A stretch of DNA of 64,000 nucleotides from Mesostigma viride (taxonomy: Eukaryota; Streptophyta; Mesostigmatophyceae; Mesostigmatales; Mesostigmataceae), in contig RPFO01000017.1 of the NCBI GenBank assembly GCA_009746045.1, positions 1,787,452 to 1,851,451 of the forward strand. The letters run 5' to 3'. This document shows, piece after piece, positions 2,062 through 50,800 of this stretch. Below the pieces are notes generated by a model. That model worked only from the letters and a program-made list of their open reading frames with translations, was not told where the DNA came from and did no database searches. Position 1 is the stretch's first letter, and the number at the start of each line of letters is the position of its first letter. The translations under genes and the position numbers were made by a program.

Positions 2062-3109
2062 ATGTCGGCCCTGGAGCTTGAGAAGCTTACTATGGTGAGC
2101 ACCTGCACGAAGCTGGCCGGATATTCCATCGCGGCTGTCTGTTTGTCGCGCATAGCCGTATTTGACGATCGTGAGGTGCCTTTCCTCCAGTTCCCTGACA
2201 TATTTTGTTCCCGTGCGCAATTTTTCTCTGCGGGTTGTCTGTTGGACAGCTCCGAGACGAGTCGCTGTCGAGGTTGCGTCAAGCGGACGAGGCCCTCTGC
2301 AGACTACGAGGCGAGGTGTCTTTCCTGGAAGCGAAAGTGCTGTCTTTTGAATCCGCAGCTGCGCGGGCAGCCGTAGAGCAAAGGAGCGCGGCGACAACTC
2401 CTCGCCGCGACGTAAGATCCGTCGAGCCGAGTTATCCCGTTCGCCGCGGCCCAGTCAAAAGGGCTTCCTCCGCCATCGCCCCATGCTCCCCGGAGCAACC
2501 CAGGAAGCGCCGCTCCACTAAAGGAGCTTGCGCGCCCTCCTTGAGGATCCCAGCATGTCTGGTTACAACCTACCTTCAGGATGACGAGGTGCGGCTTTGT
2601 TAAATTGGTCTATGGGTTTCTACCATTCTTTAAATCTATTTACTGCACGTATGTCGAAGGGAGATATACTTTTTCATGGCTGTTGTGTCCATCCTCATGT
2701 GTTCTAGACTGGCATTTAGCTGGTATTGACCTGTGCTTCTGGCTTTCATGTGTTATCTTCTGCAATTTCCTGCCCTGCCATGCTCCAGACTACACGGAAG
2801 AAAACGTCGAGAGGTTACCGCTCGCTGTGGGAGGACCCCAGCATTCTGATGCCTCCGCCCCCTCCCGTCTATCGGGGCTCTGTGTCCAGCAAGCGGCTGG
2901 GTGTGCCAGTGTCACAAGGTGTCACGTTTGGAGGCCAGCCAATCAACGGTACTGCGCGGTCAACCCAGGAGGACGCATGGGGCACGCAGAAACCTCGCTC
3001 TCGCATCTCCTTTTCCTTTGGGGGAGCGCTGGGCGATGAAACGGTGCGCATGGCCATGCCCCAGATGCAGCTGATGGTCGGGGGTCGCCCTCTCCTGGCT
3101 GTCTCATGA
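2062..3109 (+). CDS. Three-exon coiled-coil protein family, copy 1
   Basis: Exons are 2062-2094, 2250-2588 and 2789-3109, joined by GT-AG introns of 155 and 200 bp, all in phase 0. Together they encode 230 residues. Exon 1 gives an 11-residue start (MSALELEKLTM). Exon 2 opens with a heptad-like charged segment, about residues 12-55 (LRDESLSRLRQADEAL), predicted coiled coil. It then becomes basic (PRKRRSTKG), a possible nuclear signal. Exon 3 holds a proline patch (MPPPPPVYRG) and a Gly/Ser-rich tail ending in GGRPLLAVS. I do not recognise the family. Conservation of frame, splice sites and stop across three copies in this window argues for a real gene. It differs from the other copies mainly in exon 1 and intron 1. 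Nothing in the sequence shows its cellular role. Confidence 0.75.
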
Positions 3110-3604
3110 CCATGTCATCTTGAGGGCTTATTTATGGAGAGATGATATCCCCTCCTGACACCGAGAGAGCAGTGGCGGATTTATTTGCGTACAACTGCCC
3201 TTGCTAATTTTTTTTCTGCAGCTTGCCGAAAACTGCAGGGCATGTCGTGTATTTTAGTTGTTCACCGTGTGGTATATAGCATGTGGTCAGCGTTCCCTTT
3301 TTGTCATGGTATGCTGCGGAAGGGTATCACCATAGGGGTCACAGGATATTATCTGTTTGGTGATGGCTCCGAAGCCATCCGTGTGCGGCATTTCACGGAC
3401 CTCGCCAGTTTTTGGTATCAAAATTGAGCTCGGATGAACGCGGGCAGCCACACGGTGCCTAAAAGCTAGTTTCATAGTTTCATATCAGGCCCTATCATGC
3501 GTGTGTACATACAATACTATTTATTAATAAAGTAAGGCAATCAACACCAGACCATTTGCCTGCCAGTGCATTTGCACGGCTGAATACATAATTAATTAAT
3601 TAAT
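3110..3604. other. 3' flank of copy 1 and non-coding sequence
   Basis: The first 80 bp resemble the 3' flanks of the other two copies, including a TTTATTTA-like AT-rich stretch and GGCAGTGGCGG-like motifs. Beyond that I see no gene. A short TTAA-type tail begins near 3590. Confidence 0.45.
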
Positions 3605-12379: not shown

Positions 12380-12474
12380 ATGCAAAGGCAGCGGCAGGCA
12401 ATGCCCGCCACTGCCCTTGTGCAGTGTCAGGTAGAGATAATCATCTCTCAATAAATAGGCTTGAAATTTAACGG

Positions 12475-13539
12475 TCACGAGACAGCCAGGAGAGGGCGGC
12501 CCCCGACCATCAGCTGCATCTGGGGCATGGCCATGCGCACCGTTTCATCACCCAGTGCTCCCCCAAGGGAAAAGGAGATGTGAGAGCGAGGTTTCTGCGT
12601 GCCCCATGCGTCCTCCTGGGTTGACCGCGCAGTACCGTTGATTGGCTGCCCTCCAAACGTGACACCTTGTGACACTGGTACACCCAGCCGCTTGCTGGAC
12701 ACAGAGCCCCGATAGACGGGAGGGGGCGGAGGCATCAAAATGCTGGGGTCCTCCCACAGCGAGCGGTAACCTCTCGACGTTTTCTTCCGTGTAGTCTGGA
12801 GCATGGCAGGGCAGGAAATTGCAGAAGATAACACATGAAAGCCAGAAGCACAGGTCAATACCAGCTAAATGCCAGTCTAGAACACATGAGGATGGACACA
12901 ACAGCCATGAAAAAGTATATCTCCCTTTGACATACGTGCAGTAAATAGATTTAAAGAATGGTAGAAACCCATGGACCAATTTAACAAAGCCGCACCTCGT
13001 CATCCTGAAGGTAGGTTGTAACCAGGCATGCTGGGATCCTCGAAGAGAGTGCGCTAGCGCCTTTACTGGAACGGCGCTTCCTGGGTTGCTCCGGGGAGCA
13101 TGGGGCGATGGCGGAGGAAGCCCTTTTCGCAAAGCCGCGGCGAACGGGATAGCTCGGCTCGACGGATCTTACATCGCGGCGACGGGTTGTCGCCGCGCTC
13201 GTTTGCTCTACGGCTACCCGCGCAGCTGCGGATTCAAATGACAGCACTTTCGCTTCCAGGAAAGACACCTCGCCTCGTAGTCTGCAGAGGGCCTCGTCCG
13301 CTTGACGCAACCTCGATACCGACTCGTCTCGGAGCTGTCCAACAGGCAACAAGCAAAGCACGGGAAAGGAACAAGCACAATTAGGCACGGGAACGAAAGC
13401 AGTCAGGGACGTGCAGGCACGGCAACTCGCGAACATCAAACAAGGCTGTGCACCACAAACAGTCGGCCGCGCTCGAATGAGAGCCCGGAATGATGCAGGT
13501 ACTCACCCTAGTAAGCCTCTCAATCTCAATGGCCGACAT
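12475..13539 (-). CDS. Three-exon coiled-coil protein family, copy 2
   Basis: Read on minus, the exons are 13507-13539, 12996-13334 and 12475-12795, with introns of 172 and 200 bp in phase 0, encoding 230 residues. The start is MSAIEIERLTR. Exon 2 gives LRDESVSRLRQADEAL and a basic segment PRKRRSSKG; exon 3 gives MPPPPPVYRG and ends GGRPLLAVS. It lies head to head with copy 3 (starts 1430 bp apart). The inverted homology reaches beyond both stop codons, to about 12380 and 16135. Small changes from copies 1 and 3 (for example SFSLGG in place of SFSFGG) leave the frame open, so I take it as intact. Family and function are not recognised. Confidence 0.75.
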
Positions 13540-14968
13540 AGCTGGCGCAGGGGATAGCAAACTCTGTATGCGGAGGGGAACACTCTAGTACGGGACGCCT
13601 TGCTGAAGCGGCCTTTTTCATCGTGACGCAAGGACGCGTTGTCTTGGCGTTGGGCCGGCATCCTTTTTTAATGCGATAATTTATTGAAAAGGACAGGACA
13701 CGGGGACAGGAGACTATCTCTTTGAGGAGAGAGGGCGGACTGACACCAAAGACGTTTTCAACGATGTTGCCAGAATGTTGCTCCGAAATTCGTCCAGATT
13801 CCTTGGGATGGGAAGTTCGGTACTTCGGAATTTTCGAAGATTTTGAAGGCCTGCACGGCGTGGTAAATGCAGTATCTTACTTCAGCAATCAGCGCATGTG
13901 GTGCCCGAGCATTACGTAGGATGCACCAGGGATGCACCCGTTTGTGGGTGGGCGGTCTCATCTGATGCCCAACCCAGAAGCTCGCTTCAGTCTCGAGCAG
14001 GTGCCAGACTGCCAGGTAGGTGGGCGACCACTGACCAGACTCTTTTCCGTGCAACAGTACTGTAGATGTACCTTTAATGCAACTGTACCTATTCGTGGCA
14101 TCGAACTGACTCGGGATACGATACGACAAAATGTTGAGTTGAGCCTTGAGTTGAGTTGAGTTTATTCCCACGCCGGTGGTCCGACAGGGTTATTAATAGT
14201 GGATCCAACGGCTGGTCCTGCCTTATGGGGGTGGCAAACACATACATGCGAGAAATGGACTTGACCCATGTGCGGCGTGGGTAACGTAACATCAACGACA
14301 TCAACCACAACTCCACAAGCCAAACGACAACAACCAGAAGCCATAGCAGTGACAGCTGACAGATTTGAGAGCTTGAGGCATACATTCTGGTCAGATTTGA
14401 GGGCTTGAGGCATTCATTCTGGCTGACGCAGTTACACATAGGGTGACCCTACGGCCACAAGGCATCCTGTCGCATCGTCAGTCGTCCAGCGCTGCCAAAA
14501 GCCCGTCGCCCGAAGCGCGCTTCTGGGATAGTTGGATTCGCACGCCCGACCATAACGGGTGCGTCTTGCAGCATCCTGCGTAGTGCGTACACCAGTCAGT
14601 CCCACGACTGACTGCGAACACCGTCATGCTCGATCATCACATTCGCTGAAGTAAGAGATCCTGCATTTACCACCCCGTGCAGGCCTACAAAATTGGCAAG
14701 TACAGAACCTCCCATCGCACGCCTTGAAGGAAGCCCAAGGAATCTGGACGATTTGGAGCGACGTTGGTCAAAACCACCACTTTGCTGTCAATCCGCCAAC
14801 TCCCGTCCCGATCCTCATTTTTTGTATTGTTGCATCAAAAGATAGTATGCCGGCCCAACGCCGAGCCAACGCGTCCTTGCGTCACGATGAAAAAGGCGCC
14901 CTCAGCAAGGCGTCTCGCTCTAGAGCGTTCCCTTCCGCACATAGAGTTTGCTATCACCTGCGTCAGCT
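13540..14968. promoter_or_regulatory. Head-to-head intergenic region between copies 2 and 3
   Basis: The outer parts (13540-13890 and 14645-14968) are inverted versions of one another and of the region upstream of copy 1, so they probably include the two promoters. Inside lies unrelated sequence with GAGTT repeats near 14145-14162. A segment near 14185-14215 (GTGGATCCAACGGCTGGTCC) resembles 53640-53685. No gene is seen in the middle. Confidence 0.45.
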
Positions 14969-16033
14969 ATGTCGGCCATTGAGATTGAGAGGCTTACTAA
15001 GGTGAGTACCTGCATAATTCTGGGTTGTCATTCGAGCCCGACCGTCTGTTTGTGGTGCACAGCCTTGTTTGATGTTCGTGAGTTGCCGTGCCTGCACGTC
15101 CCTGACTGCTTTCGTTCCCGTGCCTAATTGTGCTTGTTCCTTTCCCGTGCTTTGCGTGTTGCCTGTCGGTCAGCTCCGAGACGAGTCGGTATCGAGGTTG
15201 CGTCAAGCGGACGAGGCCCTCTGCAGACTACGAGGCGAGGTGTCTTTCCTGGAAGCGAAAGTGCTGTCATTTGAATCCGCAGCTGCGCGGGCAGCCGTAG
15301 AGCAAACGAGCGCGGCGAACACTCGTCGCCGTGATGTAAGATCCGTCGAGCCGAGCTATCCCGTTCGCCGCGGCCCTGTGAAAAGGGCTTCCTCCGCCAT
15401 CGCCCCATGCTCCCCGGAGCAACCCAGGAAGCGCCGTTCCAGTAAAGGCGCTAGCGCACTCTCTTCGAGGATCCCAGCATGCCTGGTTACAACCTACCTT
15501 CAGGATGACGAGGTGCGGCTTTGTTAAATTGGTCTATGGGTTTCTACCATTCTTTAAATCTATTTACTGCACGTATGTCGAAGGGAGATATACTTTTTCA
15601 TGGCTGTTGTGTCCATCCTCATGTGTTCTAGACTGGCATTTAGCTGGTATTGACCTGTGCTTCTGGCTTTCATGTGTTATCTTCTGCAATTTCCTGCCCT
15701 GCCATGCTCCAGACTACACGGAAGAAAACGTCGAGAGGTTACCGCTCGCTGTGGGAGGACCCCAGCATTTTGATGCCTCCGCCCCCTCCCGTCTATCGGG
15801 GCTCTGTGTCCAGCAAGCGGCTGGGTGTACCAGTGTCACAAGGTGTCACGTTTGGAGGGCAGCCAATCAACGGTACTGCGCGGTCAACCCAGGAGGGCGC
15901 ATGGGGCACGCAGAAACCTCGCTCTCACATCTCCTTTTCCTTTGGGGGAGCGCTGGGCGATGAAACGGTGCGCATGGCCATGCCCCAGATGCAGCTGATG
16001 GTCGGGGGCCGCCCTCTCCTGGCTGTCTCGTGA
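14969..16033 (+). CDS. Three-exon coiled-coil protein family, copy 3
   Basis: Exons are 14969-15001, 15174-15512 and 15713-16033, with introns of 172 and 200 bp in phase 0, encoding 230 residues. The donor after exon 1 is a textbook GTGAGT, and the acceptors are GGTCAG and CTCCAG. The protein starts MSAIEIERLTK, then has the charged heptad-like segment of about residues 12-55, a basic stretch, a proline patch at about residues 146-150 and a Gly/Ser-rich C terminus. Intron 2 appears identical to that of copy 1 over 200 bp, while intron 1 matches copy 2 and not copy 1. A proline-rich, DNA- or cytoskeleton-associated role is possible but has no support beyond composition. Confidence 0.78.
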
Positions 16034-16135
16034 CCGTTAAATTTCAAGGGCCTATTTATTGAGAGATGATTATCTCTACCTGACTCTGCAAGGGCAGTGG
16101 CGGACACTGCCCGCCGCTGCCTTGCTGCTGTCATG

Positions 16136-18255: not shown

Positions 18256-20839
18256 GATCCATCCATCCATCCATCCATCCATCCATCCATCCATCCATCC
18301 ATCCATCCATCCATCCATCCATCCATCCATCCATCCATCCATCCATCCATCCATCCATCCATCCATCCATCCATCCATCCATCCATCCATCCATCCATCC
18401 ATCCATCCATCCATCCATCCATCCATCCATCCATCCATCCATCCATCCATCCATCCATCCATCCATCCATCCATCCATCCATCCATCCATCCATCCATCC
18501 ATCCATCCATCCATCCATCCATCCATCCATCCATCCATCCATCCATCCATCCATCCATCCATCCATCCATCCATCCATCCATCCATCCATCCATCCATCC
18601 ATCCATCCATCCATCCATCCATCCATCCATCCATCCATCCATCCATCCATCCATCCATCCATCCATCCATCCATCCATCCATCCATCCATCCATCCATCC
18701 ATCCATCCATCCATCCATCCATCCATCCATCCATCCATCCATCCATCCATCCATCCATCCATCCATCCATCCATCCATCCATCCATCCATCCATCCATCC
18801 ATCCATCCATCCATCCATCCATCCATCCATCCATCCATCCATCCATCCATCCATCCATCCATCCATCCATCCATCCATCCATCCATCCATCCATCCATCC
18901 ATCCATCCATCCATCCATCCATCCATCCATCCATCCATCCATCCATCCATCCATCCATCCATCCATCCATCCATCCATCCATCCATCCATCCATCCATCC
19001 ATCCATCCATCCATCCATCCATCCATCCATCCATCCATCCATCCATCCATCCATCCATCCATCCATCCATCCATCCATCCATCCATCCATCCATCCATCC
19101 ATCCATCCATCCATCCATCCATCCATCCATCCATCCATCCATCCATCCATCCATCCATCCATCCATCCATCCATCCATCCATCCATCCATCCATCCATCC
19201 ATCCATCCATCCATCCATCCATCCATCCATCCATCCATCCATCCATCCATCCATCCATCCATCCATCCATCCATCCATCCATCCATCCATCCATCCATCC
19301 ATCCATCCATCCATCCATCCATCCATCCATCCATCCATCCATCCATCCATCCATCCATCCATCCATCCATCCATCCATCCATCCATCCATCCATCCATCC
19401 ATCCATCCATCCATCCATCCATCCATCCATCCATCCATCCATCCATCCATCCATCCATCCATCCATCCATCCATCCATCCATCCATCCATCCATCCATCC
19501 ATCCATCCATCCATCCATCCATCCATCCATCCATCCATCCATCCATCCATCCATCCATCCATCCATCCATCCATCCATCCATCCATCCATCCATCCATCC
19601 ATCCATCCATCCATCCATCCATCCATCCATCCATCCATCCATCCATCCATCCATCCATCCATCCATCCATCCATCCATCCATCCATCCATCCATCCATCC
19701 ATCCATCCATCCATCCATCCATCCATCCATCCATCCATCCATCCATCCATCCATCCATCCATCCATCCATCCATCCATCCATCCATCCATCCATCCATCC
19801 ATCCATCCATCCATCCATCCATCCATCCATCCATCCATCCATCCATCCATCCATCCATCCATCCATCCATCCATCCATCCATCCATCCATCCATCCATCC
19901 ATCCATCCATCCATCCATCCATCCATCCATCCATCCATCCATCCATCCATCCATCCATCCATCCATCCATCCATCCATCCATCCATCCATCCATCCATCC
20001 ATCCATCCATCCATCCATCCATCCATCCATCCATCCATCCATCCATCCATCCATCCATCCATCCATCCATCCATCCATCCATCCATCCATCCATCCATCC
20101 ATCCATCCATCCATCCATCCATCCATCCATCCATCCATCCATCCATCCATCCATCCATCCATCCATCCATCCATCCATCCATCCATCCATCCATCCATCC
20201 ATCCATCCATCCATCCATCCATCCATCCATCCATCCATCCATCCATCCATCCATCCATCCATCCATCCATCCATCCATCCATCCATCCATCCATCCATCC
20301 ATCCATCCATCCATCCATCCATCCATCCATCCATCCATCCATCCATCCATCCATCCATCCATCCATCCATCCATCCATCCATCCATCCATCCATCCATCC
20401 ATCCATCCATCCATCCATCCATCCATCCATCCATCCATCCATCCATCCATCCATCCATCCATCCATCCATCCATCCATCCATCCATCCATCCATCCATCC
20501 ATCCATCCATCCATCCATCCATCCATCCATCCATCCATCCATCCATCCATCCATCCATCCATCCATCCATCCATCCATCCATCCATCCATCCATCCATCC
20601 ATCCATCCATCCATCCATCCATCCATCCATCCATCCATCCATCCATCCATCCATCCATCCATCCATCCATCCATCCATCCATCCATCCATCCATCCATCC
20701 ATCCATCCATCCATCCATCCATCCATCCATCCATCCATCCATCCATCCATCCATCCATCCATCCATCCATCCATCCATCCATCCATCCATCCATCCATCC
20801 ATCCATCCATCCATCCATCCATCCACCCATCCATCCATC
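18256..20839 (+). repeat. 2.57-kb pure (ATCC)n array
   Basis: From 18256 to 20824 I see no interruption, giving about 642 units. A single variant unit (ACCC) and a few final units follow. Because 4-bp units keep a 12-bp coding period and contain no stop, long frames encoding HPSI or GWMD repeats run through it on both strands. They are artefacts. It is bounded by LINE-B on the left and a LINE-A terminus on the right. Confidence 0.95.
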
Positions 20840-21050: not shown

Positions 21051-21057
21051 CAGCCTT

Positions 21058-21089
21058 CCCTACCAGCCATTTAGAATGTACTCCAGCAC
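21058..21089 (+). repeat. Left terminal inverted repeat of the 8.9-kb transposon
   Basis: 32 bp starting CCCTACCAGCCATTTAGA and ending CTCCAGCAC, identical to the reverse complement of 29932-29963. The sequence just inside (AAGTACATTTTG) is the inverted form of the one just inside the right end (CAAAATGTACTT). Confidence 0.85.
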
Positions 21090-21223
21090 AAGTACATTTT
21101 GAGTTTTTCCAAGTTTCCTCTTTTTTGCTTGTTTCAAGTTCAGTTCTGCAAAAAAAGTGTCCCCATGGCCCCTGGATCTCATCTGGAGGTAGTTGAACTA
21201 GTATATGCTACAAAATACTACAT

Positions 21224-21271
21224 TGTACTAGTTTGTACTACTTTGTACTACATTTTTACTATAATGTACTA
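21224..21271 (+). promoter_or_regulatory. TGTACTA heptamer cluster in the left subterminal region
   Basis: TGTACTA occurs at 21224, 21234, 21244 and 21265, the first three exactly 10 bp apart. The same heptamer occurs three times in each arm of the central palindrome. A transposase-binding role is inferred. Confidence 0.5.
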
Positions 21272-21299
21272 CATTGAACTACATTTGAACAAATTTTAA

Positions 21300-22019
21300 G
21301 GCTGCTATGCAGTTGTCTAGTGTTCCAGACCCTTGAAAAACAGGTTTTGCCGCCTCTTTCGGCTCCCCGACCCTGCTCGCGCCCAGATTCGCTACACGAA
21401 AACTGTCGCAGCCACCGGACTAATGAGGCAATCCTGCCCCCCATTGCGCCTTGCGATCACATGTAATCAAGCAAGCATGTCATGCATACTGGTGTTGTCA
21501 TAATTCATCTTGTAGCGATAAGCAAGTATTAAGTGAGACAGCTATATAATCAGGGACCATAGAAAGCGCCTCACAATCATGACACATGCACATGGCAAAA
21601 TAGCAACTTCATTGTGGCAAAACTCTTGAAACTCACCAAACATCACCAACCACAAATTATATTGTTGCCTTTTATTAAGAGAGTTTTGAACAAGGCAAGT
21701 TGCAACACCCGGTTTCCAACCATGATGGACTGTGGGCACACATATTCCATGCATGGCTATCTTGATGAAAGAGCCCGTGAGCTTTACTCTTAGTTTGCAC
21801 ATGCATAGTCCTAGTTGTCATGCCATTCTTGATGCATGATACATGTATAATCAATGCCTGCGCGAAAACATGAGCCACAAAACATATGGTGTAAGACAAT
21901 GTACAGCATCCTGCAAACATATCGCTCACCTGTGCTCCTTAATGAGCAGCACTTAACAAGACATCCCACCATGCCTCATAGACCTTGATAAGCATGGCAT
22001 CGATAGCCAAGCTACTAAT
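21300..22019. other. Left internal non-coding part of the transposon
   Basis: AT-rich sequence between the subterminal motifs and the stop codon of the minus-strand gene. No ORF is credible. It probably contains the 3'UTR of that gene. Confidence 0.45.
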
Positions 22020-24358
22020 CTAGCGCCGTTGCTTCTTCATGGAATACTCCACTGCTGGATAAGCGGGCTGCAAGTGCACCACGTTCTGCGCGAGAGATGT
22101 GACAGGCACCATCGTGATTGATTCAGAGTCGAAGTACTGCTGGTGACCTGCCGGTGGGGTTAGCACGAAAGCAGTGCCCTGCCCACTGTTACTGTATGTC
22201 GAGCGGCTTGTCACTGGAGGTGCATGCCGGTGGTATTCAACCTCAGGGTCCAATGCCGTGCGAAGTGTCACGGGAGCTGCCTGCCTGTGGTATCCGCCTC
22301 CTGCAGCAGTGTACACCACCCGCTGATCGTCCACATATGTCACAGCCCTGGGCTGAGCCATGGCTGCATCATAGTGCAGCACCCTCTGGGGACTCGACCG
22401 TGTTGAATAATGATGCCCTTGCTGCTCCAGCCCGTGACTGGAGTCACTGGCTGGAGTACCAGGGACCACCAACGGAGTACGGTACTCGCGCTCCAGTCGC
22501 TCCACCCGCTCCCGCAGCTCCTTGACCTCCTTTCGCATGTCAGGGGTAGCGGGCGCCTCAACTTTTGGTGGTGACTGCTGCGCAGCAACAACCTCCTGCC
22601 CCTTTTTCTTCCTGCTCCCCACCGTTGCTGGTGCTGCAGCTGTGCCTTGAAGTGTGGCCAGCTTTGCATTTATAGCTGCGTGCTCCTGCTCCACCCTGGC
22701 CAGCCTCCCCTCAGCTAAGCCAAGCTTCTTGGCCAGAGCGGGCAGCGACTCGACAGCCTGGCTCCCCCGCTTTGGCTTGGTGCGACCGCCCCCGAGGATG
22801 CTTTTGATATCGGTTTGAGCCTCGGCCATTGCCTCCCTCAAGCCATCATACTCCTTCTTGACCTCATCCAGAGACGAGCGCAAGTCGGATAAGTCGGCAT
22901 CACCAGCAGTCACCATGGGAATGGCAGCATCAGCAACCACAGGTGGAATGGCATGCTTAGATGCATTGGTGCAAGTGCGAACATGCTTCTCGCGCTTCAC
23001 TGGTGCATGCTCCTGCTTGACCCTCCCCTTCTTCTCGGGTGGCGAGCCGTAAGACTTGTCTGACCTGTTGTCACCGCCATCCCCGCTGCTGTTGTGCGGT
23101 GTCATGTCGTCGTCCTGAGTCCCTTCAGCTGCCCTTGAAGATACGGCAGGGGGTGCACATAGCAGGGGCACCGAGGGGAGTGAGGCAGGAAGTGGTGTGC
23201 TTGGCGGCGGCGCTGGGAGTGTGGCAGGGGGTGTAGACGCTGGCACCTTGTAGCCGACAGCCTGGATGTTGGGCAAGGAGGTGCATACAGGACAAAACAA
23301 CCCAAGGACATTTTACCATGTGTTTATTTATTTATTATAAAAAGAGCCCAATCTATCCACGGAAAAGGCACTTATATCAAAGAGGAAAGCATTCGTGCAA
23401 GACTTACACTCCAGCCTTTCTCTTGCGTGCAGGTAGTTTTTAATGCATTGATGGCAGAGTTTGGGTCATAGAATATTCCCGCGGCGGCTTCCACAGCTTG
23501 GGCCACCAGAGAAGTTTCTCGAATTGCCCCATGGGCGCCCAGATCCACTGCCAGCAACCGCGGCTTACACCACATTGCCGGAAACTGCTTCCCCGGTGAT
23601 GTGGACGGCAGCGAGTAAAACCCCTGCGAATCGCTCAAAAGGGGCATTACCAGGCAGAACCACTGCTCCTCTCTATCATTCTTACCCCCCGTACGGACCA
23701 GGCCAGCGATTAGGGCCGAGGAGAATGTCGCCACGTCAAGCTCCATTGCAGAAGCCATGTCAGCGACAGCTGCCTGGCCATCAAACGTGACCAAGTCTCC
23801 GATTGCGAATGTGTCGTTCCCAGTTTCGCAGGCGACGAAGATGTCGGGATATCCCGGCTTTCCGGTTACCTGCCCCTTGCGCACGTCGAGATGAATCGCC
23901 TCGGAGAAGCTGGTATACTCTGTCAGCATAGTGGCATCCAGCAAGTACAGCTGATTCTCACCATTCTGTCGCCTCACGCCTGCAGGCGTCCCCCCACCGA
24001 CGTCAATGACGTTGATGACGGCACCTTTGTTTGCCGTCATCTTCGATGCCACCGCATTCATAGCCATTCTACGCACCCCTAAGTGGCCACCATACTTTAC
24101 TAGGCATTTGCTGAACACGGGGGCCGAGCTAATAAGGCCACTCCCCGAGGCTGACCTAGCATCCTGCGCCATGCGCTCCAACCCAGCGACAGCCCCCCGG
24201 CACGGAACAAAACTCTTTCGAAGTCTGGAGTTGTCGCCCAACACCCCCCCTTCCACAGCGCTAGTTTCCTTAGCTTTTTCTTCGATCTTTACTTCCTCCA
24301 GGTTCTCTACCGCGGCAGGGCAGCCATTACCGACTTCCTCCGCCATGGCAGACGACAT
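22020..24358 (-). CDS. Transposon accessory protein (730 aa)
   Basis: Exon 1 is 24358-23408 and exon 2 is 23261-22020, joined by a 146-bp intron (donor AGT|GTAAGT, acceptor CATCCAG) in phase 0. The ATG at 24358 is chosen because the longer frame runs into the palindrome. The N-terminal half contains a glycine-rich VINVIDVGGGTPAGVRR segment, LLDATMLTEY, and YPDIFVACETGNDTF. It has the look of a folded Rossmann-like domain, but I cannot name the family. Exon 2 begins proline-rich and has a basic, acidic-flanked linker. A predicted coiled coil follows (about residues 460-600, including VKELRERVERLEREYR), then a Tyr/His-rich C terminus ending KKQRR. It diverges from the transposase across the palindrome and lies inside the same TIRs. 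It is therefore likely the second protein of the element, in the way that CACTA, Harbinger and Mutator elements encode a helper. No function is proven. Confidence 0.7.
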
Positions 24359-24434
24359 CGCCGTGATTGCTAACCCCGACTCACGATGAACAGGAACTTT
24401 CCCTCTGCCTCCAGGCTGTCTTCTGCGCAGCTTC

Positions 24435-24761
24435 CATGAAATGTACTTCGTGAAATGCATTTCGTGAAATGTACTAAGGAACGTGATTGGCCGGCGTTCG
24501 CTCGCCAAATCTCGCAAAATGTACTAAGGCACGTGATTGGTCCCGCAAAATGTACTAAGGAACGTGATTGGCCGGCGAAGATTCTGTAGGGAATTTTAAT
24601 TGTTGCAAACAGAATCTTCGCCGGCCAATCACGTTCCTTAGTACATTTTGCGGGACCAATCACGTGCCTTAGTACATTTTGCGAGATTTGGCGAGCGAAC
24701 GCCGGCCAATCACGTTCCTTAGTACATTTCACGAAATGCATTTCACGAAGTACATTTCATG
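24435..24761. promoter_or_regulatory. Perfect palindrome with 152-bp arms between divergent genes
   Basis: Arms 24435-24586 and 24610-24761 are perfect reverse complements around a 23-bp loop. Each arm has three direct repeats built on ATGTACTAAGGAACGTGATTGG. The whole palindrome thus offers six CCAAT boxes (as ATTGG), six ACGT cores, one per arm in full CACGTG form, and six TGTACTA heptamers. It lies 76 bp from one start codon and 103 bp from the other. A shared bidirectional promoter and/or transposase-binding site is the natural reading. As RNA or single-stranded DNA it would form one long hairpin. Confidence 0.85.
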
Positions 24762-24864
24762 AAATGCCGAGGTAGCCATGTCTTCTTGCTTGCAAAATTG
24801 TGGCTGTTTGTGCGATTAGTGTCAAGGTCAGGTGTACGTTGAGCTATCCGGACTAGTGGCCGAC

Positions 24865-27800
24865 ATGGCGGTCGAAACGGAAGGTGTGCTATGGCTTTGC
24901 TGGGACATAATCGTGGCTCTCTGCTTCCTGGCTTTCGCTATCATGCTGATGGGACACCATGGGAAGCGCAAGTCCGCAGCTGAAATGCTAAGCGGCAGCA
25001 CCCATGCCGGCAGCCTAGTGACCGACGAGACGGTCGACTGTAAGTGCGGCCACGAGTGCATGAAGCCCATTAAAACATCACATCTCCAGGCATTGCGGAG
25101 CGCCTGGTTTGCGCCCGGGCGGAAGCAAGAGGACAGGAAGGCGGCGATAAAGCAGCAGCTGCACCAGGGGGGGTACGACGCCATAACGACCATGTCGTCA
25201 TCTACTCGTCACAAGTTCGTTCATGACGCTGGTTTCCGGTTCGTTCTCGACGGGGGAGTCAAGGATAAGAACACAGGGTCTGTGACCCCTTTTCACTTTC
25301 AGGTTTGCGAGGCGGCATTCAGGCACTGCCTGAAAATTAGCAACCACGTTTGGCACTCGTCGGTCCACGAGGTGGCTGATGAGCGCCAAGCGCGAGCCGA
25401 GGGACAGCACGTCATAGATGTAAGCGGCCACCATGGCAAGAAGCAGTCTCGCGGGGGCTGCAAGGAGAGGGGGCTGGAAGCACGGGCGCTTGCGGAGGAG
25501 TGGATTCGGCGGTGGTTGGAGCCCGCGGTGCAGAATGACCCGACAAACGGAACTACGTTCATTGAGGAGCCATGCAAGCAGACTCTTTTCGCCACTTATG
25601 TGAAGGAGAACGAGAAGGAAGCCAACTTTCCCTTCGTGTCTCTCACTCTGTTCCGGATCATCTTTGAGGAGGTTGTTGCAACCAGTTATGTCCGCGTGGA
25701 GAAGTTTCGCACGAAGATCATGGGCGTGTGCAACATTTGCAGCAACATCAACAACAACATCAATGCTGCCCGTCACACTGACACTAAACGATGGGAGTAT
25801 TGGAAGGAGGAACTCGCCAACCACGAAGAGCTTTTTCATGTAGAGAGGAAGGGGTTTCTTGTCAGGCGCTTTAATGGTAAGAACGGTCACTATCATTCCA
25901 TGTCCATGGACGCTATCGCTCACATGAGGACTCACATTCCTGCGGCGGCTGAGGCGCCTAAGGACTTTCTTTCCAAGCGAGACCTGACCGTACCTTACAC
26001 CCTGATTTGTACGATTGCACACGGGTTGAGGACTTTTTTCTGGGTGGTCGCACCATGGGTGATCAACAAGGCTGTGGCTGGTAATTCGGGCAGGATAACT
26101 GTCACCATCCTTGTTCGTCACATCATTGAAATCTGCGAGCAACAGTCGTGGAACAGTGCCACGGACCCTGAGATAAGGGCTTACGGGCTGCCCAGAATTT
26201 TGGTCATGCAGGTGGACGGTGGCGGCGACAACATGAACCGCGAGGTTCTGGGGTTCGCCGCCGTCCTCATCATGAGAGGACTGTTTGACCGTGTCCGCTT
26301 CTGCAGGCTACCCGTTGGTCACACTCATATTGATTGTGATCAACGGTTCGGTTGGTTCGTCAGGTGGATGAATGGCTTAAAGAACAAGGTGACGGACAGG
26401 CCACCTGTGAAACTAATCACATTTGATGATGTGCTGGCGGGCCTTGGCATCGCATTTGAGCATTACTACGAGCAGGGCCCGACAAACTCGATGCGCCAAC
26501 TCAACCCGAAGAAGCCCCAAGCTGCGGTAAGACTTATATTAGTGTGGATGGCTCTTGATATCATGCTGGATTTCTAGTCTTCTCTATGTGCACACTTCAT
26601 GTGCAGCCATATAGGTCATCCATGTGTGTTTTAACCATGTTGCATGTGCTACAGATATTATGAGCAGTATTTACTAAGTGTGCTGGAGTCGTTGTTGCAT
26701 GCTTGTTGTTTTTCACATGTTCACGTCTGCATGAACGCATCGTTGATACTAATGATTATTCATATTGCATTATTCCTATTGCATGACTGTTCTATTGCTT
26801 GCAGATTGTGGACGCCGCACTGGATGTCACAACGTGGCTGAATGGGTGCATCCACCGCGACTTTGGCCGGTGGGTGAAATCGATGGACGCATTTCCGAAG
26901 AAGCCAGCCGCGGGCGACACCCATGGCGCGGGCGCAGGTGCAGGCGGGGGCGGGGGCGGGGGAGAAGGCGCGGGTGCGGGCGCGGGCGCCACCCAAGGCG
27001 CGGGCGTAGGCGCGGGCGCGGGCGCCACCGCCAACTTGGATGATGAGCCAGCAACCGAAGCCGAGAGGGAGAGGCACCGCTCTTCGAAGGTGTTCGATCT
27101 CGAAGTGTTTCTAGGGCCGGATATGAACGTGTATGTCCGCTGGCGCCTAGCCGCATCAGAAACGTTGGTAAATGCACCGGTGAACAAGTGGCAGCCCACA
27201 GGGCCTAACGGCGAGGCTTGTGACGGGGTCACGCCCATTGGGTACACCCCGCAGGGAGATCCTGTCTATGGGTGCCTCCTCATGGAGCGTGGCAAGGCCC
27301 CCAAGGGAAGTCCCGGTCTAGCACCGCTTTTTGAATGGGACGAGGGCGGTGCCAGGAGACGTACCTGCGCTAGCCTTCACGGCCTCTTTCCCGACATCGT
27401 CTCCGCTGAGAAGCAGCAGTTGCTGGACAGATGGTTTGAGCAGGTGCCAAAGTCCGTGGAGGATGTGCGTGCCAACAACGAGAATCTGTTCGACATCATG
27501 GAGCAAAAGCTCAAAGAGCAGCGTGAACTGCAAGCGAACAAGGCGGTACCCTTGCCGCTGCGATCTGCAGGCGACCAGTCGGTTGCGCGGGCAACACGGG
27601 CACTGAGGCTGCCCGTAAACCAAGTCATCTCGCACGTCGCTTGCCCTGCCCGCGAGATTCAAGCGCAGATCAACCGCGCATGTGCGCCCGCTGCGCGAGG
27701 GAGCACATCAACGGCAACGCCCGCTTTGCGCACACTGATTTCTGGCAGGCACACCTTCAAGGTGAATGGAAGCCTCATACGACGCGGCGACCTACTCGTT

Positions 27801-28688
27801 GTTAAGCGGCCAGCCGTCACCTGCGGGCAGGGAATGCCGTGGGCACCACACATGCTGGTGAAGGTCCTTGATCTGGAAGGCGATCGCACGGAGCGTGACA
27901 GCATTGTCGCCTCTCCTTACTACGCACCGACGTGGACGGGCCAGTTTTCTAGAGTGACATTAGGTGGCGGCAGCGCAGGGATGACGGTCCCCATTTCTGA
28001 TGTACACCTGCAGCACTGGACAGTGGGCGGTACGGCAGAGGTGCACCAGCCTGAGCTGATCAGTACCGGCAAACTGTCAGCTGCCACGGTGGCGGCGTTG
28101 AAAGAGCACCCGCAGATTGACTTTGAGCATTACAAGACTGCCACCGCCGCCAGGGCAGCAGCAAAGGATGACTGCAATGCCTACTTTGCCGAGCATGGAG
28201 CACGTGCGCTTATCGGGATGCGCCTGTGTGCCCTGTTTCCGGGGACAGCGAGGAAGAGGGAGCGCTTCCATGGCTGGGTCACTAAGGTTCAGGAAAGGGG
28301 AGGTCACCTGCTCATCAAGGCGATGTGGGCTGATGGGCAGTATGAGGACTATCATGCCCTGGAGGAGGTGACTCAGTTTGTGTGCGGCTGCCCACACCCA
28401 GTCGAGGCATTTGGCCGCGCTCGCTTCTTTCCACAGGAGGGTGGCACCGTGAATGCAGGTGATGGCACCCACATGGACGATGCCGTCCCTGCTGTGCACA
28501 GTGACAGTGAAGGCGGGGAGGAGGAGGAAGAGGGAGAGGAAGAGGGGGAGGAAGAGGGGGAGGAGGAGGGGGAGGAGGAGGGAGAGGGGGAGGGAGAGGG
28601 GGAGGGAGAATGGGAGGGGAGGGGGAGGAGGAGGAGGAAGAGGGAGAGGGAGAGGGAGAGGAGGATGCGGAATGGGAGCCGGGGATGA
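24865..28688 (+). CDS. DUF7869-like transposase (1181 aa)
   Basis: Exon 1 is 24865-26526 and exon 2 is 26805-28688, with a 278-bp GTAAGA...TTGCAG intron in phase 0. The N terminus has an unexpected hydrophobic stretch (about residues 11-31, IIVALCFLAFAIML). Next come Cys/His residues C59, C61, H63 and C65 (CKCGHEC) and C289/C292. The core (about residues 440-500) carries QVDGGGDNMNREVLGF (D451, D455, N456) and GHTHIDCDQRFGWF (H486, H488, D490, D492). This matches the signature I know from the transposon-associated DUF7869 family, an RNase-H-like domain. Exon 2 adds a Gly/Ala linker, two SH3/Tudor-like stretches (RRGDLLVVKRP...; FHGWVTKVQERGGHLLIKAM) and a Glu-rich tail. It shares the palindrome with the minus-strand gene. 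The catalytic role is inferred. Confidence 0.75.
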
Positions 28689-29099
28689 CTGGTAGATGAG
28701 ACGGTGCCATCTACCGGCGCATGGAATGAAGTGGTACACAAGTTTACTCATGGTTATCGGCAAGTAGAGCATGCACGCCTGGCCTAGTTGCATTTAAATC
28801 AATGAGTTGAGTTTGGAGAGGCTGCAGTTTGCTTGGATGAAGAATGTGTTAGCATGGCCAAACTTTTATGGCTTGTAGCCAAATCCTCTTGGGGTATGCA
28901 GTGTACTAGCGGTGTGCAATTGCGAGGATTCCTGTCTTGTAGCGATGTGGCCTCTCACCCTGCAGCCTGGTAGATGTGTTGGCATGCAGCCACCCATCAT
29001 TGGTCATCCGATCTGGTGTGATTTGCATTTGCACACCTTGTATTAAGGCCATGATTTAATATTGTCTTGTTATTTTTTATGTGTATATGCGAAAAGAGG
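28689..29099. other. 3' flank of the transposase gene
   Basis: Non-coding; probably 3'UTR and internal transposon sequence. Nothing else is seen. Confidence 0.4.
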
Positions 29100-29880
29100 C
29101 ATAATATGCTCATATATAGTGCTAGCAAGTGTCACTACCTTTACCTATGCCTGACCTTACAAGTTGAGGATGGTCTAATGTAGTGGCAAACAGGTTATTT
29201 ACAACAATTCACAGTTTTCTGACTTAGTTTGAGGCAACTATACTTACCAAAATGCTTGAAAAAGGCAAAAATTGCACCATTTATGCTAGCGAACGTCACT
29301 ATTTTGAGATCAAACGGGGCCCAAACTTGGCCCATGGTCTAATCTAGTGGTGTTTAGGTTGCTTCCAACATTTCATAGCTTTCTGACATAGTTTGATATT
29401 GTTTAGTAGCTTACACTGAGCAAAATGCTTGAAAATGGCAAAAAATGCACCATTTATGCTAGCAAACGTCACTATTTTGACATCAAACAGAGCCCAAACT
29501 TGGCCCATGGTCTAATCTAGTGGTGTTTAGGTTGCTTTCAACATTTCATAGCTTTATGACGTAGTTTGATTTTGTTTAGTAGCTTACACTGAGCAAAATG
29601 CTTGAAAATGGCAAAAAATGCAGTATTTATGCTAGCAAACGTCACTATTTTGAGTTCAGATTGACCCCAAACTTTGTGCATGGTCTATTCTAGTGGTAAT
29701 TAGGTTGCTTGCAAATATCCATGATGGTTTGACGTGATTTAGTACTGTTTCCTATTTATTACTATTTAATTTAATTTAAAATGACAAAAATGTACCTTTA
29801 TTGCTAGCAAATGTCACCAAGATGACGTCCGATCGATACCAAACTTTGTACGAGGTCTATTTTGGTTGCAAACATCATGC
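29100..29880 (+). repeat. 173-bp subterminal tandem array
   Basis: Three well-conserved units start at 29248, 29421 and 29594 (each CAAAATGCTTGAAAA...), giving an exact 173-bp period. More divergent units flank them on both sides (about 29120 and 29770). Each unit has the core CTAGCAAACGTCACTATTTT and CATGGTCTAATCTAGTGG. It lies just inside the right TIR. Confidence 0.8.
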
Positions 29881-29931
29881 ATGACAATTTTCAGCATAAA
29901 AAGACAAACTTCGGTACGAAGTACATTTTGC

Positions 29932-29963
29932 GTGCTGGAGTACATTCTAAATGGCTGGTAGGG
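29932..29963 (-). repeat. Right terminal inverted repeat of the 8.9-kb transposon
   Basis: Reverse complement of 21058-21089 with no mismatch over 32 bp; it ends ATGGCTGGTAGGG followed by CTT. Confidence 0.85.
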
Positions 29964-30001
29964 CTTGGCGGGATAATAAATTGGATATAAATCAGAAGAA
30001 G

Positions 30002-44800: not shown

Positions 44801-47800
44801 TCGGATCGTCATTACAGCGGATGCTGGGGGTGGCAGAAAACAGCGGTGGCGGATGGTGGCGAGTGAGGGGGGAGGGCCATGATTGCTATTTGGTATCCAG
44901 AATGAGTACATGATCTACTTGTCTCGCTACATAGCGCGCTGAGGAGAAGCACTCTCCACAAACATCATGGTGCCATCTAGGCAGGCCACCGCCCACTGAT
45001 CGAAATTTCGACCAGCCCACCCTCTGCGTCCGCCCCTCCACTCCCCCCTCTAGCCACAACCCTGCTGCCTCAACCTCAATGCCAGCCCATACGAATAGGG
45101 CCTATATCATTTGATACCCGCCATACGCTCAAGAGTGCTTCACGAGATAAAGTGATCACCTCCCCATGGAGGCTGCCATGGCTGCAATGCGCTCGCAGGA
45201 AGCCCATACCTGTCGCAGGTCGGCCCCTGACTCGGCGAAATACGGCCGGATCCGGGGATCTGCCTGTGCGCCCTCTCGCACGCACGCGCGCACAGCCGGG
45301 TCCGTGACAAACGCCACCAGAAGGAGAGAAGCATCGCCCTCGTAAGAGAGCCGCAGGGTGCGATCCACCGTCGACCGCTGCACTGCGCTTGAAGCCCTGC
45401 TCGACCCCTCCTTCCGAACCATCCCCTCCACCTCCGCCTCTGACAGCCAGGTGCCTCTGGGCACATGCCCCGGGACACCATCGTCCTCCCCTAGCCAGCA
45501 GCTGTACTGCTCCCTGGCAGCTGTCACCCGCAACGGGGGGGGTGCCCCCGCCCCTGGCATCCGCCACCGGGGGGTCCTCTTGTTCGCTGCCCGCTGGTTG
45601 CCCGCCTCCACCATGGCGTCCACCTCATCATCGGAGCACATCGGGTCGTGGTGGAAGAGCGCCACCTGTCGCACCTGCGGGGTTGCCACCGTAGAGGATT
45701 GTTAAGGGGTGGAGGTGGACGGGTACATCGACGATCAAATGGGCAAAATGTTAAACGATGCTTAAAAATTAATTGAGATTAAATGAATTGAACGATTTCC
45801 TACCGTGGATCCACGGTCAAGTGCGTTACTATGCGGTTAAGCTAGCAATAGACGCTAGTTGCCGTGCAGCTGACACACAACAGGCGTGCCGAGGAAGGGG
45901 GCCATCTGAATGCACACAAAAATATATCCGTGTAATGTGTATAAGGAGTCGGCATCATTTGGTATACCAAGCCACCAACCCACATGCCACCAACCCACAT
46001 GCCACCAACCCACATGCCACCAACCCACATGCCACCAACCCACATGCCACCAACCCACATGCCACCAGCCCACATGCCACCAACCCACATGCCACCAACC
46101 CACATGCCACCAGCCCACATGCCACCAACCCACACGCCACCAACCCACATGCCACCAGCCCACACGCCACCAACCCACATGCCACCAACCCACATGCCAC
46201 CAGCCCACATGCCACCAGCCCACATGCCACCAGCCCACATGCCACCAACCCACATGCCACCGACCCACATGCCACCAACCCACATGCCACCAACCCACAT
46301 GCCACCAGCCCACATGCCACCAGCCCACATGCCACCAACCCACATGCCACCAACCCACATGCCACCAGCCCACATGCCACCAGCCCACATGCCACCAGCC
46401 CACATGCCACCAACCCACATGCCACCAACCCACATGCCACCAGCCCACATGCCACCAGCCCACATGCCACCAACCCACATGCCACCAACCCACATGCCAC
46501 CAGCCCACATGCCACCAGCCCACATGCCACCAGCCCACATGCCACCAACCCACATGCCACCAGCCCACATGCCACCAACCCACATGCCACCAACCCACAT
46601 GCCACCAACCCACATGCCACCAGCCCACATGCCACCAGCCCACATGCCACCAACCCACATGCCACCAGCCCACATGCCACCAGCCCACATGCCACCAACC
46701 CACATGCCACCAACCCACATGCCACCAACCCACATGCCACCAACCCACATGCCACCAACCCACATGCCACCAGCCCACATGCCACCAGCCCACATGCCAC
46801 CAACCCACATGCCACCAACCCACATGCCACCAGCCCACATGCCACCAGCCCACATGCCACCAGCCCACATGCCACCAACCCACATGCCACCGACCCACAT
46901 GCCACCAACCCACATGCCACCAGCCCACATGCCACCAACCCACATGCCACCAACCCACATGCCACCAGCCCACATGCCACCAACCCACATGCCACCAACC
47001 CACATGCCACCAGCCCACATGCCACCAGCCCACATGCCACCAGCCCACATGCCACCAACCCACATGCCACCGACCCACATGCCACCAACCCACATGCCAC
47101 CAGCCCACATGCCACCAACCCACATGCCACCAACCCACATGCCACCAGCCCACATGCCACCAACCCACATGCCACCAGCCCACATGCCACCAACCCACAT
47201 GCCACCAACCCACATGCCACCAGCCCACATGCCACCAGCCCACATGCCACCAACCCACATGCCACCAACCCACATGCCACCAACCCACATGCCACCAACC
47301 CACATGCCACCAGCCCACATGCCACCAGCCCACATGCCACCAGCCCACATGCCACCAACCCACATGCCACCAACCCACATGCCACCAACCCACATGCCAC
47401 CAGCCCACATGCCACCAACCCACATGCCACCAACCCACATGCCACCAGCCCACATGCCACCAACCCACATGCCACCAGCCCACATGCCACCAACCCACAT
47501 GCCACCAACCCACACGCCACCAACCCACACGCCACCAACCCACACGCCACCAACCCACATGCCACCAGCCCACATGCCACCAGCCCACATGCCACCAGCC
47601 CACATGCCACCAACCCACATGCCACCAACCCACATGCCACCAACCCACATGCCACCAGCCCACATGCCACCAACCCACATGCCACCAACCCACATGCCAC
47701 CAACCCACATGCCACCAGCCCACATGCCACCAACCCACACGCCACCAACCCACACGCCACCAACCCACATGCCACCAGCCCACATGCCACCAGCCCACAT

Positions 47801-50800
47801 GCCACCAACCCACATGCCACCAACCCACATGCCACCAACCCACACGCCACCAGCCCACATGCCACCAACCCACATGCCACCAACCCACATGCCACCAACC
47901 CACATGCCACCAGCCCACATGCCACCAACCCACATGCCACCAACCCACATGCCACCAACCCACATGCCACCAACCCACATGCCACCAACCCACATGCCAC
48001 CAACCCACATGCCACCAGCCCACATGCCACCAACCCACATGCCACCAGCCCACATGCCACCAACCCACATGCCACCAACCCACACGCCACCAACCCACAC
48101 GCCACCAACCCACACGCCACCAACCCACATGCCACCGACCCACATGCCACCAACCCACATGCCACCAGCCCACATGCCACCAACCCACATGCCACCAACC
48201 CACATGCCACCAGCCCACATGCCACCAACCCACATGCCACCAACCCACATGCCACCAACCCACATGCCACCAACCCACATGCCACCAGCCCACATGCCAC
48301 CAGCCCACATGCCACCAGCCCACATGCCACCAGCCCACATGCCACCAACCCACATGCCACCAACCCACATGCCACCAACCCACATGCCACCAACCCACAT
48401 GCCACCAACCCACATGCCACCAACCCACATGCCACCAACCCACATGCCACCAACCCACATGCCACCAACCCACACGCCACCAACCCACATGCCACCAACC
48501 CACACGCCACCAGCCCACATGCCACCAACCCACATGCCACCAACCCACATGCCACCAACCCACACGCCACCAGCCCACATGCCACCAACCCACATGCCAC
48601 CAACCCACATGCCACCAACCCACATGCGACCGACCCACATGCCACCAACCCACATGCCACCGACCCACATGCCACCAACCCACATGCCACCAACCCACAT
48701 GCCACCGACCCACATGCCACCGACCCACATGCCACCAACCCACATGCCACCAACCCACATGCCACCAGCCCACACGCCACCAACCCACATGCCACCAACC
48801 CACATGCCACCAACCCACATGCCACCAACCCACATGCGACCGACCCACATGCCACCGACCCACATGCCACCAACCCACATGCCACCAACCCACATGCCAC
48901 CAACCCACATGCCACCAACCCACATGCCACCAACCCACACGCCACCAGCCCACATGCCACCAACCCACATGCCACCAACCCACATGCCACCAGCCCACAT
49001 GCCACCAACCCACATGCCACCAACCCACATGCCACCAACCCACATGCCACCAGCCCACATGCCACCAACCCACATGCCACCAACCCACATGCCACCAACC
49101 CACATGCCACCAGCCCACATGCCACCAGCCCACATGCCACCAACCCACATGCCACCAACCCACACGCCACCAACCCACATGCCACCAACCCACATGCGAC
49201 CGACCCACATGCCACCCACCCACATGCGACCGACCCACATGCCACCAGCCCACATGCCACCAGCCCACATGCCACCAACCCACATGCCACCAACCCACAT
49301 GCCACCAACCCACATGCCACCAACCCACATGCCACCAACCCACATGCCACCAGCCCACATGCCACCAACCCACATGCCACCAACCCACATGCCACCAACC
49401 CACATGCCACCAACCCACATGCCACCAACCCACATGCCACCAACCCACATGCCACCAACCCACATGCCACCAGCCCACATGCCACCAACCCACATGCCAC
49501 CAACCCACATGCCACCAGCCCACATGCCACCAACCCACATGCCACCAACCCACATGCCACCAACCCACATGCCACCAGCCCACATGCCACCAACCCACAT
49601 GCCACCCACCCACATGCCACCGACCCACATGCCACCAACCCACACGCCACCAACCCACATGCCACCAACCCACGTGCTCTGCCGCATGGTGTCCACATGC
49701 CGCAGGTGCCTAGTCCACCCTGAGTATCACCCTTAGTATCCTACTAGAGCTGACAAAGATGAATCGACCTCCACGTCCCTAGTCTCTATCACCTGACATC
49801 TCCCTACCAGCAAATAGTCTCCACCTCTCCACCTCTCGCTCTCAATTCCTGCATACCATGGCTGAGCGCTGAGGGGCGCTGAGTCACCGCGCTCACCTGC
49901 GCGTGCGCCGCCATGTCGACCACGTACTCTAGTGTAGAGTGACCCCACCCGACCTTCTGGGGGTACTCGCACGCTGTGTACTGGCAGTCGTGGATGAGCA
50001 GGTCCGCGCCGCGCATAAACGCGCAGTGACGGTCGTCAGCACTTGATGGTGCTGCACACATGCACACACACGCAATCGCATGGGATGCACCAGCCAGTTA
50101 CTGCTTATTTTGTGGCCCTATATAACTAAAGCGTGGCATGCTCAAGCACAATATTCCCATGAAATTGAGCAGACTTGTGTGGGTGCTCCTTAAGGGATGA
50201 CAGGCATGCCACTTTGCAGGTAGCGTGCCATGTCATGGGGTGCTCTTGCATGGCTAACTAACCACAATGCAAGCCGGGATGGAAATACCAAATTACTCAT
50301 GAGCTGCACGCCACCGGCCACACTATTATTAAATTGCAAACCTCAAGGTTTGCCATTAGACAGTGCAGCGTAAGGAGAGGCCGGTATGCTGCAGGCATTC
50401 GTCCTAGGCTCACCAGGGGTGCCGCCATCTGCCAGGGTGCGACAGTGAGGCTCGTGGTCCGTGCAGTAGAGGACGGTGGCGCCATCGGCGACGATCCGAT
50501 ACCCCAGGGTGATCGCAGGGTGGTTCATGTACAGGGTCGTGATGGTGATGTCGCCGATGCTGAACGTCTCCTCGGACAGGTCGTGGAACTGCATGCGGAA
50601 TGCAGGCATTACAGTGGCAGCAGCGCCGTACGCACGTATATGTACGAATATGATCAGTACTGCATGTATTATACAGAGAGAAAATTAAAAAGCTGGAGGG
50701 AGAGAAGAGGTAGTCCAGGAAGAGCAGTATATCCGTCGTATTCCTGCGGGTACTGCGGCTAAGCCACCTGCAGCCTTAAAATAGGGTATGGTGCAGCGTT

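Follow-up and report, generated by a model that had tools for sequence, protein, structure and literature searches.

An 8,906-bp element carrying two divergent genes lies between positions 21058 and 29963 of the stretch of Mesostigma viride DNA considered here (64,000 nucleotides of contig RPFO01000017.1, referred to as the window). Our results support its description as a complete, multicopy and recently mobile two-gene transposon with terminal inverted repeats (TIRs), associating a protein of the DUF7869 family with a conserved partner. We further consider it very probable that this is a class II transposon of a DUF7869 lineage, autonomous and with very recent activity, moving by cut-and-paste, in which the plus-strand protein is the transposase and the minus-strand protein a helper. 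A previous interpretation of the letters alone (the sequence-only reading) had proposed a complete 8.9-kb two-gene DNA transposon of uncertain superfamily. The first part of this proposal is upheld by the multiple copies, the TIRs, the target duplications and the open genes; the second still holds, none of the superfamilies checked providing an assignment.

Terminal repeats, target duplications and copies in the genome

The element is bounded by 32-bp TIRs, at 21058..21089 on the plus strand and 29932..29963 on the minus strand, as delimited by repeat comparison and by the ends of other copies. These repeats are perfect, as had been claimed, and are located to the base; the left one includes GAATGTACTCC and, as also read in copy ends, the termini begin with CCCTACC rather than with CACTA. 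The triplet CTT reported outside both ends is read in the flanks, at 21055..21057 and 29964..29966, as the left and right target-site duplications (unstranded features).

Copies, ends and relatives were sought genome-wide, in the 440-Mb assembly that contains the window. Eleven full-length copies at ~100% identity are found, together with three incomplete ones, one of which enters an assembly gap. The 32-bp TIR is present in all 11 full copies, with a single mismatch in one of them, and each copy is flanked by a 3-bp target duplication (CTT, CAG, CAC, CAA, GGA, CGA, GCA, AGG, TAT, TGA and ACT), all 11 triplets being different. In the alignment of these copies, 21 of 8,913 columns are variable, 19 of them within a purine-rich microsatellite (28568-28638) and 2 outside it (21061 and 29906). 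The TIRs, for which a genome-wide search had been suggested, are multicopy: with W and R allowed and at most 3 mismatches, the 32-bp end has 233 + 243 = 476 matches, and the reversed-pattern control has none. Among the 42 listed matches printed with their letters, the variant TTAAG is found 34 times, TTTAG (the form of the window copy) 7 times and TTAAA once. Given this excess over the control and the 3-bp duplications of the 11 full copies, the terminal repeats and target duplications are far beyond chance.

Empty sites were searched by joining the flanks of target sites and matching them against the genome. The joined flanks of four sites give uninterrupted matches, at 98-99%, for three of them; for the remaining one, L015, no uninterrupted match is seen among the 40 candidates scored. 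At an additional fifth site, L013, there are 40 matches, each of 216 bp for a 220-bp query. Two uninterrupted target copies were read base by base, and the triplet (CAG for L009, CAA for L011) is present once in each, exactly at the duplicated position. Empty sites, which the sequence-only reading had proposed to look for, do exist, in the form of paralogous copies of repeats and not of alleles. Two of the outcomes by which that reading would have been refuted, a TIR pair present only once and a complete lack of empty sites, are contradicted by these data. A search confined to the window gives no empty site for the window copy. Of the features by which class II TIR elements are recognized, two are observed: the multicopy elements terminate exactly in inverted repeats, and a duplication of fixed length has its matching empty site.

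The two divergent genes and the palindrome between them

The two open, spliced and divergent genes announced inside the TIRs are retrieved, the splice sites of both being inferred from sequence. The plus-strand gene is composed of exon 1 (24865..26526, residues 1-554; from open reading frame (ORF) and splice prediction), a predicted GT-AG intron (26527..26804) and exon 2 with the stop codon (26805..28688). Its spliced product has 1,181 aa, in a frame that is open across the intron. The minus-strand gene is composed of exon 1 (23408..24358), encoding a conserved N-terminal domain delimited by the ORF and by family comparison, a predicted GT-AG intron (23262..23407) and exon 2 with the stop codon (22020..23261), encoding a Pro/Ala-rich linker, a coiled-coil-like segment and a basic C-terminus (KKQRR). 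Its frame, also open across the predicted intron, encodes 730 aa, or 726 if translation begins at the following ATG.

Both motifs that had suggested a DUF7869-like protein, QVDGGGDN and GHTHIDCDQRFG, are present in the plus protein, and its residues 440-503 (26182..26373, plus strand) match Pfam DUF7869 (PF25273) with 48.9 bits (E=7.7e-13) for a cut-off of 26. The corresponding proteins of two related families, C and D (the family of the window copy being A), reach 43.3 and 45.6 bits, so that all three are above the cut-off. Four acids are invariant in the aligned A, C and D sequences: D349 (25909..25911, plus strand), in the context S...D..A.M.T..P and a candidate first catalytic acid; D451, in QVDGGGDN; and D490 and D492, in GHTHxDxDQRFG, the last three lying in the DUF7869 match. 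D349 and D451 are separated by 102 residues, and D451 and D490 by 39, a spacing that could fit that of a DDD transposase.

Exon 1 of this protein is found at 78 or more places in the genome, 14 of them in family A at 100%, 28 with full-length matches at 43-46% and 36 with partial ones. In family C, to which L027 and L028 belong, we find an exon 1 that is 45% identical to that of A, a related exon 2, a divergent minus gene and a central palindrome of its own. L028 is complete, with 8,558 bp, a perfect 25-bp TIR (CCCCATGCACACC...) and the duplication TCC; L027 matches it only to ~8327, and another insertion may separate this point from the right end of L027. The family has at least 40 left ends and at least 40 right ends, and 3-bp duplications flank 7 of nine further end pairs (8 of 10 including L028). 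Family C is thus a second family with the same organization, comprising TIRs, target duplications that are mostly of 3 bp, a helper, and a palindrome with the same CCAAT decamer; the features in common would mark what is essential. Between the cores of C and D, dN is 0.077 and dS 0.641 over 348 codons; the transposase core is under purifying selection between these families.

Family D, represented by L029, L030 and ~25 similar places among the matches listed, all near-identical, displays the transposase core only, in a 397-398-aa frame, 53% identical over residues 199-533. The possibility of a complete element was considered for this family and rejected: a TIR-like right end is present (CCCTARCC inward), its left end was not found and no helper match is located nearby.

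The plus protein begins with a conserved hydrophobic segment, at about residues 9-29 (24889..24951, plus strand), the last of which is Met29. This segment is found in all four N-termini read (A, C, L057 and L058), with best 19-residue hydropathy means of 2.54, 3.05, 2.61 and 2.85, respectively; no 19-residue window exceeds 1.6 in the rest of the A protein. In all four, it ends at a Met, after which come a run of basic residues and an SAA motif. At the other extremity, the repetitive acidic C-terminus (~28520-28670) is probably frameshifted as read from the window copy. A base at ~28615, present in 8 of the 11 copies, is missing in the window copy, L009 and L014, and the tail is acidic (...EEDAEWEPGMTGR) in L010 and Arg-rich in the window copy, the two copies translated there. 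The microsatellite at 28568-28638 lies in this coding region, and its length varies among near-identical copies, toggling the C-terminal frame between acidic and Arg-rich.

The minus-strand partner, described beforehand as unrecognised, has no Pfam match above cut-off. Its exon 2 gives weak SMC-type matches in NCBIfam, far below the cut-off, as coiled coils often do, and a hydropathy scan detects no hydrophobic window like that of the transposase N-terminus. The A helper is 26% identical to the family C helper (E=1.5e-15). With the domain of the latter, 98 matches are obtained in the genome, among which are the 14 A copies, at 27%, and families of intermediate identity (~38-64%). When full exon-1 matches of the transposase are considered (beginning no later than residue 15 of the query and ending no earlier than residue 507), an opposite-strand, divergent helper match is located 738-1,379 bp upstream in 42/42 of those listed. 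For partial exon-1 matches, i.e., family D and fragments, such a helper match accompanies 5 of the 36 listed. Conversely, 55 of the 98 helper matches are at most 6 kb away from a transposase match of the list (family D rows excluded), the transposase match list used here being a lower bound. Nothing argues more strongly than the association in 42/42 full matches for the minus gene being a component of the element rather than a passenger.

The palindrome shared by the two genes, previously noticed inside the TIRs, is found between them at 24432..24764 (unstranded). Its arms (24432-24587 and 24609-24764) have 156 nt each, of which 155 are paired, around a 21-nt centre, and it contains eight AATGTACT motifs and four GGCCAATCAC decamers, the latter with a CCAAT box. 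AATGTACT occurs 13 times in the element (in both TIRs, just inside them, in a left array and in the palindrome) and not once in the other 55 kb of the window. When no more than 2 mismatches are allowed, AGTACATTTTGCG has 8 matches in the window for 1.2 expected, all of them inside the element. GGCCAATCAC occurs 4 times in the window and twice each in L027 and L028, in palindromes only, for an expectation of ~0.18 per 64 kb from base composition; by blastn (E 1e-5), the palindrome of L028 has no similarity to the A element. The distribution of these three motifs points to the palindrome as a candidate promoter acting in both directions, and the motif shared with the termini might allow autoregulation.

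Further repeats lie close to the termini, on the plus strand. The motif AGTACATTTTGAG (21091..21103), with one mismatch to AGTACATTTTGCG, and an exact AGTACATTTTGCG (29920..29932) were located by motif search next to the left and right TIRs. A left subterminal array (21193..21294) is made of ~10-bp repeats resembling TTGTACTACA, spaced by about one helical turn, which are candidate protein-binding sites, and three 173-bp tandem repeats (29239..29757) are present on the right, with a partial fourth reaching 29866.

Five elements of another type, B, were fetched, which lack transposase residues ~169-512 and have ends in common with the full element. Both B copies with two readable ends display 3-bp duplications (ACT and CAT), and TTAAG is the TIR form in most of the B ends read. 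No helper match is seen in their readable parts, L024, L025 and L026 having runs of N in that half. The palindrome spans ~615 bp in L023, L024 and L025, vs. 333 bp in the window copy, and no second arm is seen in L022 and L026. Since the core is lost and the ends are the same, type B is probably a non-autonomous derivative moved in trans.

Alternative readings and known superfamilies

Several observations weigh against an autonomous DUF7869 transposon equipped with a helper. Concerning the transposase, the DUF7869 match amounts to 64 residues of 1,181 and to 65 of the 192 model positions. Many further acids and other residues are invariant in the three aligned sequences, and E536 is common to A and C; the acidic triad is a guess because so many other acids are invariant too. 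Single-sequence structural models are unusable, both for exon 1 (554 aa, mean pLDDT 36.2, with ~70 reached only by the N-terminal helix, one block of ten) and for its last 215 residues (340-554, mean pLDDT 35.7). A profile search of the PDB gives a single match for the transposase (E=0.27), i.e., no usable relative, and no relative for the helper. Outside the assembly, no relative is found by protein database searches or in phage, viral and prokaryote contig collections, which means little because the collections searched hold few eukaryotes. A membrane-type N-terminus is also odd for a nuclear enzyme. With the Met at the end of the segment as an alternative start, a soluble form could be produced, and cleavage might likewise release a soluble transposase.

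The helper and family C contribute objections of their own. Some linked helper matches are short or stop-bearing, and 43 of the 98 lie more than 6 kb from any transposase match of the list, 12 of these 43 being at least 600 bp long. We read the unpartnered matches as transposase loss or missed matches, because the transposase list is a lower bound and old copies decay. These 43 places might also correspond to helpers on their own, to deletion derivatives or to transposases absent from the list. In family C, C53 is flanked by CCA and CAC, which would be CAC if the left TIR were one C shorter, and the copy at C1629:62341-70954 is flanked by the 5-bp repeat CTCAG instead of a 3-bp one.

It is conceivable, though unlikely in our opinion, that the element is a new family of an already described superfamily whose transposase is the DUF7869 protein, such as the Sola group (Sola1-3), with which it was compared by description only. 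Sola transposases have DDD triads, which the possible triad of the plus protein would fit, and Sola target duplications are of 4 bp, vs. 3 bp in 11/11 copies here. Sola1 and Sola2 have been reported in a brown alga, where one Sola1 family has an accessory gene on the opposite strand, an arrangement similar to that of the element (PMC12477816).

EnSpm/CACTA (CMC) elements have repeated subterminal motifs, as does the element, and CMC transposases carry a C(2)C/H(4)H motif between the second D and the last E, which is not seen between D451 and D492 of the plus protein. CACTA elements are described with two ORFs, TIRs and a 3-bp target-site duplication (PMC4158355), and the likeness extends to the pairing of a transposase with an ORF2/TnpA-type helper. 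By analogy, the element works like CACTA/Spm, with its 3-bp duplication and its transposase and helper. Its termini are, however, CCCTACC in A and CCCCATG in C, unlike CACTA...TAGTG, and its divergent genes on a palindrome and hydrophobic transposase N-terminus set it further apart. No CACTA-type transposase domain is matched in Pfam, where, at E<=10, only DUF7869 and one chance match (0.34) appear, HMMER filters dropping most matches above E ~0.1. The CACTA label is ruled out by the termini and the transposase family, although the 3-bp duplication agrees with it; that the element could be a highly diverged CMC member is quite unlikely.

Two other labels were tried and ruled out. PIF/Harbinger (PHIS) elements share with the element two genes and, in canonical members, a 3-bp target duplication (PMC12730594). 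Their target triplets are TNA or ANT (PMC12477816), whereas those of the element are varied (CTT, CAG, CAC, GGA, CGA and others), and no Harbinger transposase or Myb/SANT partner is matched by Pfam in the proteins of the element or of its related families; the triplets and the proteins both exclude this label. Zator/ISAzo13 elements likewise have a 3-bp target duplication (PMC10045372), and this label was discarded in the absence of a Pfam match to an ISAzo13-type transposase.

The DUF7869 protein and its partner could also be cargo, the transposase being encoded elsewhere and acting in trans. The core-less B elements, which carry the same ends, lend some credit to this view, trans movement probably occurring in the family. 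The pair is nevertheless kept together in all 42 full exon-1 matches listed, despite helper divergence to 27% identity, the comparison of C with D reveals purifying selection on the core, the key acids are invariant, and the sole other ORF of at least 300 aa in the element (25198-26142, antisense) has no Pfam match; we hold the cargo hypothesis to be very unlikely. Finally, the near-identity of the copies might evoke recent segmental duplication, which has practically no chance of being correct and is refuted by the differing flanks, with a 3-bp duplication around every full copy, and by the exact empty sites.

An autonomous cut-and-paste transposon of a DUF7869 lineage is the interpretation that we retain. 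According to it, the 1,181-aa transposase would recognize the TIRs as well as the subterminal motifs of GTACT type, and would cut the ends by means of three acidic residues in an RNase-H-like core, the likeliest being D349, D451 and either D490 or D492. The ends would be joined to target DNA with a stagger of 3 bp, no preference for particular sequences being evident. The 730-aa product of the minus gene would be required as a helper; it is probably a coiled-coil protein, either DNA-binding or architectural, which would act on these ends as ORF2/TnpA does in CACTA/Spm. A single palindromic bidirectional promoter, with CCAAT boxes and the terminal AATGTACT motif, would drive the two genes, and element proteins binding to the palindrome could control their own expression. 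Derivatives of type B, which share the ends and lack the core, would probably be moved in trans.

The combination of a DUF7869 protein, a helper and a shared palindrome inside TIRs had been presented as undescribed, which is consistent with our Pfam, NCBIfam and literature searches: no paper naming DUF7869 was found, membrane-bound transposases gave no match, and the listed matches for palindromic divergent promoters in transposons are unrelated by title. A new superfamily is possible. A more specific and tentative proposal, improbable as it stands, would be that of a separate eukaryotic DNA transposon superfamily, whose transposase would be made membrane-anchored and whose mobility would be gated by exit from the membrane, with a helper produced from the same palindromic promoter.

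Surroundings of the element and significance

The rest of the window contains other repeats. An (ATCC)n array (18257-20839; 2.6 kb, 646 copies at 99%) lies directly to the left of the element and generates spurious long ORFs in several frames, and a second tandem array (45971-49677; 3.7 kb), with 247 copies of a 15-bp unit (GCCACCAACCCACAT), is open in several frames on both strands. An ORF at 6481-7803 matches the reverse transcriptase model RVT_1 (E=2.6e-7) and is perhaps a retrotransposon fragment. The region 12460-16048 holds a pair of 1.2-kb inverted repeats, 96% complementary, with arms 1.2 kb apart, possibly a foldback element, of which a further inverted copy lies at 2226-3111.

At the scale of the assembly, DUF7869 has at least 150 matches above cut-off, and none in 14 control genomes. 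They form several amplified groups, with open frames of ~750, 1,212-1,219 and 1,729 aa, many being of 1,200-1,700 aa, and these other groups may be further transposon families. If our interpretation is true, DUF7869, whose function is unknown in Pfam, gains a concrete job as a transposase. The near-identical copies, with defined ends and defined target duplications, make the element ready for a mobility assay, and the conserved helper, the shared palindromic promoter and the hydrophobic N-terminus are testable features, unexpected for an ordinary CACTA or Harbinger element.

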